Part shown: positions 10,420 to 15,427 of the stretch, one piece after another
How positions within the stretch are numbered: the first letter of the stretch is position 1
Layout of the letters: each line of letters begins with the position of its first letter
NCBI GenBank assembly: GCA_021797555.1
Contig: JAJZZM010000013.1
Span: 1 to 64,000 of the forward strand
Source: Thermoplasmata archaeon
Lineage (GTDB): Archaea; Thermoplasmatota; Thermoplasmata; Thermoplasmatales; Thermoplasmataceae
Reading direction: 5' to 3'
DNA: 64,000 nt
Translations under genes and position numbers: made by a program
The notes under the pieces: model-generated
Databases searched by the model: none
Told to the model about the DNA's origin: nothing
What the model saw: only the letters and a program-made list of their open reading frames with translations

Positions 10420-10686
10420 TTAAATTAACGTTACATCTCTAGTATCTACCTGGCTTACATGCTCAACAGATGATATTGCATTTTCAACTTTGTCTATTTT
10501 GCCCTCCTCATCCGGCACTATGACTGAAAACATCAGTGCATTTAACCCGAAACCTATTTCCTCCTCTTTTATATCATTAATTTCACAGAGGTTCTCCAAT
10601 TTCTTCGATATATTATTCCTTAAATCATCCAGATTAATATCTACTGATTCTGGCAATACCCTTAATAAAACCATTACGTCTCCCAT
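10420..10686 (-). CDS. ef1b: Translation elongation factor aEF1-beta
   Basis: An 88-residue guanine-nucleotide exchange factor for aEF1A. The protein has the alpha-beta fold signature VLLRVLPES at the start and the conserved ending with GFGLNALMFSVIVPDEEGK. A longer frame reaches 10722, but MGDVMVLLRV at 10686 is chosen because it matches the family start and is preceded by a GTGAT ribosome site. It overlaps the stop region of the upstream zinc-ribbon gene, a pairing common in archaea. Confidence 0.92.
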   Translation of the reverse strand: MGDVMVLLRVLPESVDINLDDLRNNISKKLENLCEINDIKEEEIGFGLNALMFSVIVPDEEGKIDKVENAISSVEHVSQVDTRDVTLI

Positions 10687-10691
10687 AAAAA

Positions 10692-10868
10692 TCACGGCCC
10701 TATATATCCACATCCTGGACATTTATATGGTGTAGAATGTTCCCTGCATTGCTTACATCTGCCTATCATCTCTTCGCCACAGTTCGGGCAAAGGAATATT
10801 GAATATCCAACCTCAACGAGGCCTATGCCACATGAAGTACAAGTTTCTTTGGTGTTTATTTTAATCAC
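10692..10868 (-). CDS. Small zinc-ribbon protein (HVO_2753-like)
   Basis: A 58-residue protein built from CxxC pairs: CTSCG, CPNCG, CKQC and CPGCG, giving two zinc-binding knuckles, and it ends in CGYIGP. This is the small archaeal zinc-finger family usually found beside the aEF1-beta gene, as here. A GTG at 10868 is chosen as start because a TATA-like ATTATATATATT is centred about 25 bases upstream, which suits a leaderless transcript; TTG at 10880 is the alternative. Its role is unknown, probably nucleic acid or ribosome linked. Confidence 0.82.
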
Positions 10869-10923
10869 TTCCTTAAACAATATTAAAGTAATATATATAA
10901 TCTTTATTTAATTCTAAATAAAA

Positions 10924-11565
10924 TCATAAATGTATTCCAAGAAATAATGGTATCAACCCATCGACAAAATTTAGAACTATTACAAGTATAAATATGGCTG
11001 CATATAATTTGCTGTTCCAGTAAAATATTTTGCTTCCATCAAGTGGTGGTATAGGCAGTAAATTAAAGAGTGCAAACCACAGATTTAGCAGTGCGACATA
11101 AAATAAAACAAATTCAAGTATAAACATTGAGGGGAATGATAAAAATAAATATAAAATGTAAAATATAAGACCGAGTACAATATTTGTTGCCGGGCCTGCA
11201 AGTGCTATTTTTCCCTCACTTTCCTGATCATACAGGCCTGCAAATTCAACAGCCCCGGGTGCACCAAATAAAAAACCGAACATTGATGTTACCAATGCTA
11301 TTAAAACACCGGCAGGCCATAATTTAAAAAAGGCTACGGCACCAAGCCTTCTTGCAACGGCCCTATGTGCCATTTCGTGCATTAAAAAGGCCGTTACAGT
11401 TACAGCGAATCCTGTTAGCCCTGCAAGTTCTATAGATGCAGTGTTATATCTTACTATTCTTGATATACCACCGGTTATCATCAGTGTAAATGCTATGGTA
11501 AGAATTAGAACTGCTACAAGTATGTCATTTGTTTCATTGTTTCTATTATAATACATTTTCATCAT
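10924..11565 (-). CDS. Site-2 protease family (M50) membrane metalloprotease
   Basis: A 213-residue intramembrane zinc protease with about six helices. HEMAH (H63, E64, H67) is the HExxH zinc motif in a helix and NLLPIPPLDG (168-177) supplies the third ligand D176. No PDZ or CBS domain is present, so it is the minimal archaeal form. The start region overlaps the end of the giant repeat protein by 20 bases; starts at 11562 or 11556 are also possible. Overlap implies co-expression with that protein. Substrate unknown. Confidence 0.88.
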   Translation of the reverse strand: MMKMYYNRNNETNDILVAVLILTIAFTLMITGGISRIVRYNTASIELAGLTGFAVTVTAFLMHEMAHRAVARRLGAVAFFKLWPAGVLIALVTSMFGFLFGAPGAVEFAGLYDQESEGKIALAGPATNIVLGLIFYILYLFLSFPSMFILEFVLFYVALLNLWFALFNLLPIPPLDGSKIFYWNSKLYAAIFILVIVLNFVDGLIPLFLGIHL

Positions 11566-14500
11566 CCTTATTTAAAATATCAATTATATTTAAAGCATCG
11601 ATAAGTCCTATATCAAAGCTATAAACAAGTTCCATCGGGTTTTTATTGTCTATATTTACATTTTTTAATATATAATTATATTTACTATTGAATTTTATAT
11701 TATATGTATTGTCCAGTGACCTGCATATAAATATATAAAAGTTTTTTGCCGTTATGACATCCTTAACAACATTGTATATCTGGTTTATTTTTATTTCAAG
11801 TATATTTTTATAGCCATTTTCATAAAGCTTCTTAATTATATCCCTTGACATGTCATTATATACGTACTTATTTATAAATGTGTATGGCTCCATGTTTTGA
11901 ATAAATCCATGCAGATTCCTGGAGACATAATCCGGTATAATTATATAATAATCATTAAAACTTAGTATTTTATGTTCATTATATTCATATTCAAAAAGTT
12001 TTTTTGCCCATGACAACAAATCTTTGAATTTATATGATGCTATCAATTTATTGTTTACTTCATTAAATACATTTTTATTAAGCATATTATGGTATTTATT
12101 CTCAAGTTTTATGTAATTTTCATACATAAATAATTTTATTGATGAGAAAATAAAATATTTAATATTATAATTATTTATATAATCATCATCATATATTTTT
12201 ATTATGGAATTATAATCCCTGACATTGTAATATTTAGATACGAGTTTATTGAACAGAAATAAATTTTTTGTTTCATTGAATTTATTATATAATATTGACA
12301 ATGCATCCTCAATTTCATTATTCTCTGTTAATGCATGTATTAACCTGTTAAGTATCATTAAATCATTGTTATATAAACCATATAATTTTTTTAGAATAGT
12401 AATCTCACTACAGTAATCCTCCTCCTCATCAAATTTTGCACTTATTAATTCCCCTGTTATTCTATCATTTTTTTCGTTAAAAATTTTTATTATGTTATTT
12501 TTTATGGTGCTTCTGTTCCATGCATTATTTATAATGAATTCCATAATTTTTTTATTGTCATAAATTTTATCCATAATGCTTTCTATTTTATTATACTCCT
12601 TTTTTATAAAATACAGTATTATAACATTAAAATAATCATCATTATTAATGAATTTATTTATATTACTGCTATATATTTTATTATCATTCCTAATTTTAAT
12701 GAAATTTACATTATTTATAATATCATTATTATGCATAAATGCATTATTATAATATTTAAATGAATTATAATAGTCATCCTTTGAATAATAGTAATCTGCT
12801 ATCAATTCATAGGTTTTATAGGTTTTAAATTTAAAGGACCTTAAAAATTCTATTCCCATTTTTATAGAAATATTCTTTAATATATTGTAATGTTCTATTA
12901 TGTCATCTTCATTATAATCCATGGCAAGCGTTAACGCAGAATATTTTATTTTTGATTTATATTCATTGAATAAATTCCTTTTTATTCTATACAGGTTTAT
13001 GTCTTTTATGTTTATATTAATAAATTTCTCTGTTATAGAATCATCAATTTTATTATATAATATAAACTGGTAAGCATCGCTAAATATGCAGTAAAAATTC
13101 ATCTTAAAAGCTTCATCAAGCAGATTATCTATGCTATCACCACGTTTCATCAATAGCATTAATTTTAACGAAAAGAAATCGGAGTTTTTTAGTATTTCTA
13201 TTGCTTCATTTACATATTTCTCCGAATCGCTATAATTATTTTTATGGTATTCTATTAAAGCTCGGTAATAATAATAAAATGGATCAGGGTTTTTTGAAAT
13301 TAAGCTTTCAATCATTTTTTTTGCTTCACTGTATTTATTATTTTTTATTAAAGCATCTGTCACCGGGTATAAAAAATATTTTAAATCCTTTGTGTCGTCA
13401 TTTATCTTATTATTATAAACATCAAAGATCGTTTTTACTATGTAATTAATATTATTGAATTTACCCATTGATAATATATTGTTTACATAATTTTTTCTTC
13501 TATTGTTTTTAAAATCAATGCCGTTTATTACTATTATATATGCACATATTATGGACCCGTTTTTGTTTACAGCATCAATATATTTCAGGTAATCTATATT
13601 TTTATCTCCCCTTATATAACTAATAACCAGTTCCAGCAAAGTATCCTTATGGTTCACAGAATCAAAGGCTTTTATATTTCTATCTGATTTTATAGCATTA
13701 AATAATGAATCAATGATCTCGCCATTATTCAATAATTGACCATTGTTCCTTATTTCATTTATTACCAAATCCATTTTATTATTGTGTATTAATGATGATA
13801 TATATTTACCAATAAAATCATTTTTTATATTGTATTTCTCAATAAATTCTTCAAGTTCAATATAATTTTCATTACTGTAATGATAATTAATTACTGTATT
13901 AAATGCATTATAGCTTTTTTCACCGGTTTTTAATAGTTCATTTGCTACATAATATTCCATGAAATCATTTTCTGTGTTTTTATAGTATTCAAGTTCAAGG
14001 TATAGTATATCCTTACCATTGCCATATTCATTTATGTACGATTTTATATCGTCACCTGCCTCAATATACATATTAAGTTTTATTTCGGCCTCTATTTTAT
14101 ATAAATAGAATTTTTCATCCAGCCTATCAAGTTTTTCCATGGATCTTAAATATAATATTAACTGTCCGTAATTATGTATTTTATATTCTATCTCTATTAT
14201 CTTAGATATAACGCTTTTATCAATATTGTAATATATGTTTTTATAAACATTAAGGGCTTTGCCATATTTTCCGCTGTAATAATATGAATCCGCCAGTATT
14301 TTATTTTCCATGTCCGATGTATCGGCGTATTCTATTGCCATATCATATTTTCCATCAAAATATAGATATTTAGACAGTTTCTCATTTGGTTTTTTATTGT
14401 CATTTATTAAAAGGTAATCCACAATATCGTTTAAGCCATTCCCGTTATCTGTTTTAATATATAAATCCCCGAGTAGATAATAACAATTTATGTCATTTTT

Positions 14501-15046
14501 CAATTCTATGCATCTTTTTAAAATATTTTCCGCATTTTTATAATCGTTGTTATTAATAAAATTATAAACAATATTTTTAAAATAATTATAATTATAATCA
14601 TTTCTTATATAATTTTCAATACATGCATTATCATATATATCCAGTTCCGATAAATGAACTATTCTATCATACATGTCCAGGGAATCAAGGAAATTATAAA
14701 GTTTTTCCTTTATATCTTTAACCGATAGCAAATCCATATTATTTTTTATTAAACCCAGAAAATTATCCATGTCATTATTACTGTAATATAATCTAATTTT
14801 ATACAATAATACAATTTTATTTTTATTATCTATTTCATTTATGATTTCATACAAACTTTCTGGTATTTCCTTATCTTTAAGGTAATTAAACAATATATCA
14901 TTAATTTCATTATCATATAATTTTATTATGATGTCTTTTTCCTTTAACATATATTCTATAAGTTTTGTATAGGAATTGTTTTTAGTAGCATCTTCCAAGT
15001 AGTTACCAAGTTTTTTATTTATTTTTCTATACGTTAATGAAATCAT
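11546..15046 (-). CDS. Giant Asn/Tyr-rich TPR-like repeat protein, unknown function
   Basis: A 1,166-residue protein without signal peptide or membrane helix. It is almost wholly alpha-helical, with repeated helix pairs that look like divergent TPR/solenoid units, for example YLYFDGKYDMAIEYAD, YYSGKYGKALNVYKNIYY and YSEAKKMIESLISKNPDP. Asn, Ile, Lys, Asp and Tyr are over-represented, in part because of the AT-rich genome. TPR proteins are usually scaffolds. The stop lies inside the start of the site-2 protease gene, so the two are translated together. A TATA-like box precedes the ATG. I do not recognise a named family. Confidence 0.75.
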   Translation of the reverse strand: MISLTYRKINKKLGNYLEDATKNNSYTKLIEYMLKEKDIIIKLYDNEINDILFNYLKDKEIPESLYEIINEIDNKNKIVLLYKIRLYYSNNDMDNFLGLIKNNMDLLSVKDIKEKLYNFLDSLDMYDRIVHLSELDIYDNACIENYIRNDYNYNYFKNIVYNFINNNDYKNAENILKRCIELKNDINCYYLLGDLYIKTDNGNGLNDIVDYLLINDNKKPNEKLSKYLYFDGKYDMAIEYADTSDMENKILADSYYYSGKYGKALNVYKNIYYNIDKSVISKIIEIEYKIHNYGQLILYLRSMEKLDRLDEKFYLYKIEAEIKLNMYIEAGDDIKSYINEYGNGKDILYLELEYYKNTENDFMEYYVANELLKTGEKSYNAFNTVINYHYSNENYIELEEFIEKYNIKNDFIGKYISSLIHNNKMDLVINEIRNNGQLLNNGEIIDSLFNAIKSDRNIKAFDSVNHKDTLLELVISYIRGDKNIDYLKYIDAVNKNGSIICAYIIVINGIDFKNNRRKNYVNNILSMGKFNNINYIVKTIFDVYNNKINDDTKDLKYFLYPVTDALIKNNKYSEAKKMIESLISKNPDPFYYYYRALIEYHKNNYSDSEKYVNEAIEILKNSDFFSLKLMLLMKRGDSIDNLLDEAFKMNFYCIFSDAYQFILYNKIDDSITEKFININIKDINLYRIKRNLFNEYKSKIKYSALTLAMDYNEDDIIEHYNILKNISIKMGIEFLRSFKFKTYKTYELIADYYYSKDDYYNSFKYYNNAFMHNNDIINNVNFIKIRNDNKIYSSNINKFINNDDYFNVIILYFIKKEYNKIESIMDKIYDNKKIMEFIINNAWNRSTIKNNIIKIFNEKNDRITGELISAKFDEEEDYCSEITILKKLYGLYNNDLMILNRLIHALTENNEIEDALSILYNKFNETKNLFLFNKLVSKYYNVRDYNSIIKIYDDDYINNYNIKYFIFSSIKLFMYENYIKLENKYHNMLNKNVFNEVNNKLIASYKFKDLLSWAKKLFEYEYNEHKILSFNDYYIIIPDYVSRNLHGFIQNMEPYTFINKYVYNDMSRDIIKKLYENGYKNILEIKINQIYNVVKDVITAKNFYIFICRSLDNTYNIKFNSKYNYILKNVNIDNKNPMELVYSFDIGLIDALNIIDILNKDDENVL

Positions 15047-15091: not shown

Positions 15092-15427
15092 CTAATGCAG
15101 TATTAACAATACATTGAAAACACTGGCAAGGCTTGAATATATATTTATTCCTGCGAATTCAAACAATGCTATGCTTATTCCTGTGCCAAGGAACATTGAT
15201 GACAGAAGGTATGCTAATGACCTTATTCCAAGGAATAATATTACACCTGTTATTATAGCTATCAATGGTGCGTATGTTCCAGACGATATCGTAATACCTG
15301 ATGATGCATATTTAATGAAATATGGAGCTATAACAGTTATAAATTTTTCTCCAAAAATAACTCCTACTATTATGCCAATAATGGTTTCTATATCATTTTT
15401 TATTCTTATATATTTTCTAATATCCAT
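15092..15427 (-). CDS. Small membrane protein, unknown function
   Basis: A 111-residue protein with three or four hydrophobic segments rich in Ile and Gly, after a short charged N-terminus (MDIRKYIRIKND). It sits upstream of the giant repeat protein on the same strand with a 45-base gap, and a TATA-like stretch precedes its ATG. The opposite strand also has a 111-codon frame, but the minus-strand translation has clear membrane helices and a promoter. No family recognised. Confidence 0.6.
   Translation of the reverse strand: MDIRKYIRIKNDIETIIGIIVGVIFGEKFITVIAPYFIKYASSGITISSGTYAPLIAIITGVILFLGIRSLAYLLSSMFLGTGISIALFEFAGINIYSSLASVFNVLLILH

Follow-up and report, generated by a model that had tools for sequence, protein, structure and literature searches.

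In a 64,000-nucleotide stretch of a Thermoplasmata archaeon genome (GCA_021797555.1, contig JAJZZM010000013.1, positions 1 to 64,000; hereafter the window), a gene encoding a giant tetratricopeptide repeat (TPR) protein of 1,166 residues is directly followed by the gene of a minimal site-2 protease (S2P). Comparison with related genomes strongly supports conserved adjacency and likely translational coupling of the two genes within the order Thermoplasmatales, as an earlier sequence-only reading of the window had supposed. On the basis of this linkage, we proposed that the TPR protein acts as a cytosolic scaffold or adaptor that is docked on S2P and recruits substrates or partners, with a probability of about 0.45.

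Linkage of the TPR and S2P genes within Thermoplasmatales

We addressed the conservation of the pair in 29 loci from the window's own family (f1), which represent about 19 genera. In all 29 loci, S2P was the next gene after the TPR gene on the same strand, and the distance from the TPR stop to the S2P start ranged from -29 to +44 nucleotides, being mostly 0, -1, or -4. An automated count gave 28, with the best TPR segment in locus L059 lying far from the gene end; the open reading frames (ORFs) of this locus do abut. The pair was also found in three further families, labeled here f5 (seven loci, mostly with a 4-nucleotide overlap), f4 (one locus), and f6 (one locus, at a contig end), and its flanking genes changed across the order while the adjacency persisted. 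The sequence-only reading had asked whether the genes stay adjacent in other Thermoplasmatales and would have been contradicted by a pair unlinked in all relatives; the adjacency was instead retained in these four families. In f3 and part of f4, S2P occurred alone, and the TPR protein was not found there apart from one marginal match in f3. A 1,288-residue ORF beside S2P in f4 (locus L106) was considered as a TPR relative and rejected, as it had no TPR profile match and carried a signal-like N-terminal segment.

Adjacency of this kind could reflect genomic inertia from the ancestor of the order, without any functional link, and other neighbors (the zinc-ribbon and aEF1-beta genes, or aEF1-beta and GT2) are likewise often together. 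However, the zinc-ribbon gene remained next to S2P in 17 of the 29 f1 loci and was separated from it in 12, whereas S2P was never separated from the TPR gene, and the overlapping or abutting stop and start were maintained by very different sequences. Thus, we consider inertia highly improbable.

The S2P gene, its overlap with the TPR gene, and its catalytic motifs

The S2P gene of the window (10924..11565, minus strand) encodes 213 residues from its first ATG, or 210 from the probable start at ATG 11556. Its product matched PF02163 (Peptidase_M50) with 42.7 bits against a cut-off of 27.2, has several hydrophobic segments, and contains both an HExxH zinc-binding and catalytic motif (HEMAH, 11365..11379, minus strand) and an NxxPxxxLDG motif (NLLPIPPLDG, 11035..11064, minus strand), the Asp of which is the third zinc ligand. 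Judged by its sequence, it is therefore a Peptidase M50/site-2 protease, and it shares these motifs, the polytopic character, and the Pfam family with M. jannaschii S2P, RseP, and SpoIVFB. It differs from them in its coupling to a giant TPR gene, in the loss of HExxH in two relatives, and in its length of about 200-210 residues, which is too short to accommodate a PDZ or CBS domain. Up to three more M50 genes were observed in the same genome (contigs C20, C14, and C5), two of them over the Pfam cut-off and one weak.

The earlier reading had placed the TPR stop 20 bases inside the S2P start. The overlap itself was borne out, but the value of 20 nucleotides holds only from the first ATG. The relatives of S2P begin with MMYSRNNE..., which aligns with the fourth residue of the window protein; in addition, an AAGG Shine-Dalgarno-like motif lies 9 nucleotides before ATG 11556 but touches the first ATG. 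The Shine-Dalgarno-like site, AAGGATGA (11562..11569, minus strand), is located inside the end of the TPR gene. From the relatives' start and the spacing of AAGG, the true overlap is probably 11 nucleotides (11546..11556, minus strand) rather than 20.

The HExxH and PPLDG motifs were intact in all pairs but two. The S2P homologues of G020 and G036 (L102:8910-9524 and L039:8949-9563) lacked HExxH, and that of G020 also had Pro in place of the Asp of PPLDG. G020 is very probably Cuniculiplasma divulgatum S5, and the second HExxH-less S2P comes from a sister species; a third species of that genus (G261) retains HEFAH. At the protein level, the two HExxH-less genes are 57% identical; both remain in frame, with a 1-nucleotide overlap with the TPR gene. 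Between them, the ratio of nonsynonymous to synonymous differences (pN/pS) was about 0.33, an upper-end estimate given that the synonymous sites are saturated. These data show that S2P, as read from its motifs, is catalytically dead in two relatives, yet it has an open frame and is under purifying selection. Three comparisons were made between pairs with an active S2P. In two of them, the identity of the protease (88-90%) exceeded that of the TPR protein (64-73%), and in the third, a very close pair, both proteins showed 97% identity. In the HExxH-less pair, the values were 57% for S2P and 55% for the TPR protein, which fits a lost catalytic constraint on a gene that is itself still kept. The iRhoms are inactive intramembrane proteases that retain the protease fold, and the S2P of C. 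divulgatum resembles them in keeping its fold after the loss of catalysis; however, rhomboids and S2Ps differ in fold and mechanism. In C. divulgatum, a cultured organism that has naturally lost the catalytic motif, a scaffold function is separated from a protease function.

Architecture and conservation of the giant TPR protein

The TPR gene (11546..15046, minus strand, ATG start) is supported by its ORF, Pfam matches, relatives, and an AlphaFold model. The ORF listing agreed with the sequence-only reading that its 1,166-residue product is the largest in the window, and the reported absence of a membrane segment was also upheld, the highest 19-residue Kyte-Doolittle mean being 1.58. Relatives with identities of 72-73%, of 34-40%, and as low as about 20% are full-length and free of internal stops, relatives of similar length without internal stops occur in nearly all genomes of the window's family, and within the genus pN is far below pS. 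Because diverged relatives remain full-length and pN is so low, the ORF is not a chance product. In the half-complete genome G016 (locus L112), the TPR gene is broken over several frames, probably through assembly or sequencing errors. As a single-sequence query against genome contigs, the TPR protein gave no matches, its divergence being too rapid for such a scan. The gene upstream of the TPR gene (15092-15427, minus strand) encodes a 111-residue membrane protein without a Pfam family, which was detected solely in loci from the window's genus.

Residues ~1-985 (12092..15046, minus strand) form a solenoid of TPR-like helix pairs. Pfam TPR_19 matched the protein with 33.8 bits (curated cut-off 25), the clearest TPR stretch being residues 564-621; TPR_14 was matched by all 20 members of the family alignment, and the f5 members carry canonical TPRs, the best of them with E ~1e-132 to TPR_2. 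The AlphaFold model, which was built from three sequences taken solely from the related loci and is of moderate confidence (mean pLDDT 65.8, pTM 0.35; a deeper alignment would improve it), is all-helical, with helix pairs over the repeat region and no strands. Its Foldseek neighbors were TPR/PPR proteins, the closest solved structures being long TPR solenoids at low TM-score. Thus, the protein is a genuine, highly diverged TPR solenoid, as the sequence-only reading had suspected. The same reading recognized no known domain, which is not quite right given that TPR_19 passes its cut-off; it had also held that a clear match to a known enzyme would overturn its proposal, and no such match was obtained. 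The diverged look of the repeats is partly due to the unusually high content of Asn, Ile, Lys, and Tyr in the window copy. A global Fourier analysis at a period of 34 residues gave no information, as expected with drifting repeats.

Conservation is highest over the last ~165 residues of the protein, which correspond to a family-specific, all-helical C-terminal domain (residues ~1006-1166; 11549..12031, minus strand). The profile of this domain (A4) matched 195 of the 250 Thermoplasmata genomes sampled, almost all of them having one copy that terminates an ORF, typically of 1,200-1,670 residues; it also matched a few genomes elsewhere in the phylum. The domain was missing from 22 of 23 genomes that were reached via S2P matches, mostly other archaea, and the sole match among the 23 was identical in position and score to a genome of the class. 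Sequence searches of Pfam and the PDB returned no relative. A model of the homologous piece from locus L117 was confident (mean pLDDT 83.3) and showed a long helix followed by three units, each of a helix and a short helix-turn-helix-like element; a Foldseek search of the PDB with this model gave no match at E<=0.001, the best hits being generic TPR/PPR structures. A profile comparison gave no significant repetition among the three modules, and the repetition is therefore read from the predicted structure. A likeness of the last module to an FtsK-gamma or HhH motif was considered and was not supported by Pfam. The domain marks a gene family that is present in most Thermoplasmata, and this family of giant TPR proteins is so far undescribed.

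Candidate function and rival readings

Few studies have dealt with regulated intramembrane proteolysis in archaea. A gene tied stop-to-start to S2P across an order is a direct and testable candidate for how minimal S2Ps that lack a PDZ domain select their substrates. In the scaffold model that we favor, the giant TPR protein of Thermoplasmatales would be co-produced with a minimal S2P that has no PDZ or CBS domain of its own, and would dock on it. The solenoid and the three-module C-terminal domain would bind clients or client tails and hold them at the membrane, where an active S2P would cleave the anchored client; in C. divulgatum and its sister species, the dead S2P may have been retained to anchor the scaffold in the membrane. 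The model is favored by the unbroken adjacency in f1 and its recurrence in f4, f5, and f6, by the motifs intact in all pairs but two, by the retention of the two dead S2Ps as open, abutting genes, and by the precedent of TPR adaptors for other proteases. Contact between the two proteins and their roles as adaptor and anchor are proposed from gene linkage, and a shared, membrane-linked TPR-S2P unit is plausible on these grounds. We advance more tentatively the complete scenario, in which a so far unrecognized single-copy core TPR scaffold of Thermoplasmata, with a unique three-module helical C-terminal domain, was wired onto S2P in Thermoplasmatales to give a TPR-controlled S2P complex, with the Cuniculiplasma protease as a pseudoprotease anchor.

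TPR adaptors that steer proteases are known. In E. coli, the TPR adaptor LapB/YciM guides the membrane protease FtsH to its client; LapB is itself anchored in the membrane and contains a rubredoxin domain, and FtsH is an AAA+ protease. LapB was among the profile and structural matches of the TPR protein, and the likeness lies in a TPR protein steering a membrane protease; the two systems differ in the anchor, the rubredoxin domain, and the AAA+ partner, and share no sequence relationship beyond TPR. In Pseudomonas aeruginosa, LbcA is a TPR spiral adaptor of the CtpA protease and is thought to wrap and deliver the substrate (PMC8764530). The window pair shares with LbcA-CtpA the principle of a TPR adaptor and a protease, a resemblance rather than membership that is known here from gene linkage; it differs in having an intramembrane metalloprotease and a 1,166-residue TPR protein with its own C-terminal domain and no membrane segment. 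Searches of a literature library found no paper describing the TPR-S2P pair. Among the known arrangements of a TPR adaptor and a protease, this one is new in having an intramembrane protease as the partner, a C-terminal domain that is undescribed, and a variant with a pseudoprotease.

Several observations weigh against the scaffold model or against an obligate unit of the two proteins. The catalytic death of S2P in two relatives weakens the case for an obligate unit, and the structural matches, among which LbcA and LapB stand alongside many other TPR proteins, are generic to TPR proteins (TM-scores ~0.1-0.37). Outside the order, other families of the class and phylum were sampled at 38 loci, and the TPR gene had no S2P neighbor at any of them; a few of these loci are truncated by the end of a contig. 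The S2P subfamily is itself found across the class (222 of 250 Thermoplasmata genomes). The TPR protein was kept in 17 of the 20 listed S2P-negative genomes, and S2P in all 20 listed TPR-negative genomes. Some S2P negatives are incomplete metagenome assemblies, and some TPR negatives in f11 are false, G103 and G109 having been missed in one profile scan and recovered in another. At class level, each gene thus appears able to exist without the other, which likewise weakens the case for an obligate unit. Taken together, the order-wide adjacency, the class-wide presence of the TPR protein without an S2P neighbor, and this mutual independence indicate that two core genes of the whole class became coupled long ago in this order specifically, and that the pairing has been kept since.

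This independence keeps alive the main rival, in which the two proteins are co-expressed and act separately, the TPR protein retaining an ancestral, S2P-independent, class-wide job and the operon providing shared dosage or regulation. Proteins with the C-terminal domain indeed occur across the class without an adjacent S2P, also in genomes without a detected S2P of this subfamily; against this, the stop/start coupling is unbroken in about 19 genera of f1 and in three further families while other neighbors were reshuffled, and we regard separate action as somewhat unlikely.

A conserved operon partner of the TPR gene outside the order was sought and not found. In 11 loci there (L247, L248, L249, L258, L259, L260, and others), the TPR gene lies tail-to-tail with the gene of a TruD-type pseudouridine synthase, and an archaeosine-synthase-type TGT gene is also a neighbor elsewhere than in f1. 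Together with aEF1-beta and the zinc-ribbon gene in f1, these frequent translation and tRNA-modification neighbors could point to the TPR protein as a scaffold that, like Ski3 or Naa15, serves an RNA or translation machine, with S2P mainly tethering it to the membrane and proteolysis being secondary. The dead S2P retained in Cuniculiplasma and the top Foldseek matches of the full model (Ski3, IFT139, Ctr9, and Naa15) are consistent with this proposal. However, the TM-scores of these matches are 0.1-0.2, as any long TPR solenoid gives, and the TruD neighbors are convergent, on the opposite strand, and therefore form no operon with the TPR gene; we consider an RNA or translation scaffold unlikely. 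Orthology to Ski3, Naa15, or Ctr9 was rejected, with TM-scores of ~0.1-0.16 from a moderate-confidence model and a C-terminal domain that has no PDB match at E<=0.001. The protein shares a long TPR superhelix with Ski3, TTC21/IFT139, Ctr9, and Naa15 but no C-terminal domain, which at such low TM-scores is a repeat-level likeness. In one f8 genome, a gene for a DUF6159 protein (L227:6702-7634, plus strand) shares 29 nucleotides with the end of the TPR gene. In the window, an HVO_2753-like zinc-finger gene (10420-10880, minus strand) overlaps the aEF1-beta ORF by 31 nucleotides, and in each of the 22 f1 loci in which the zinc-finger and aEF1-beta genes were detected, they lay side by side.
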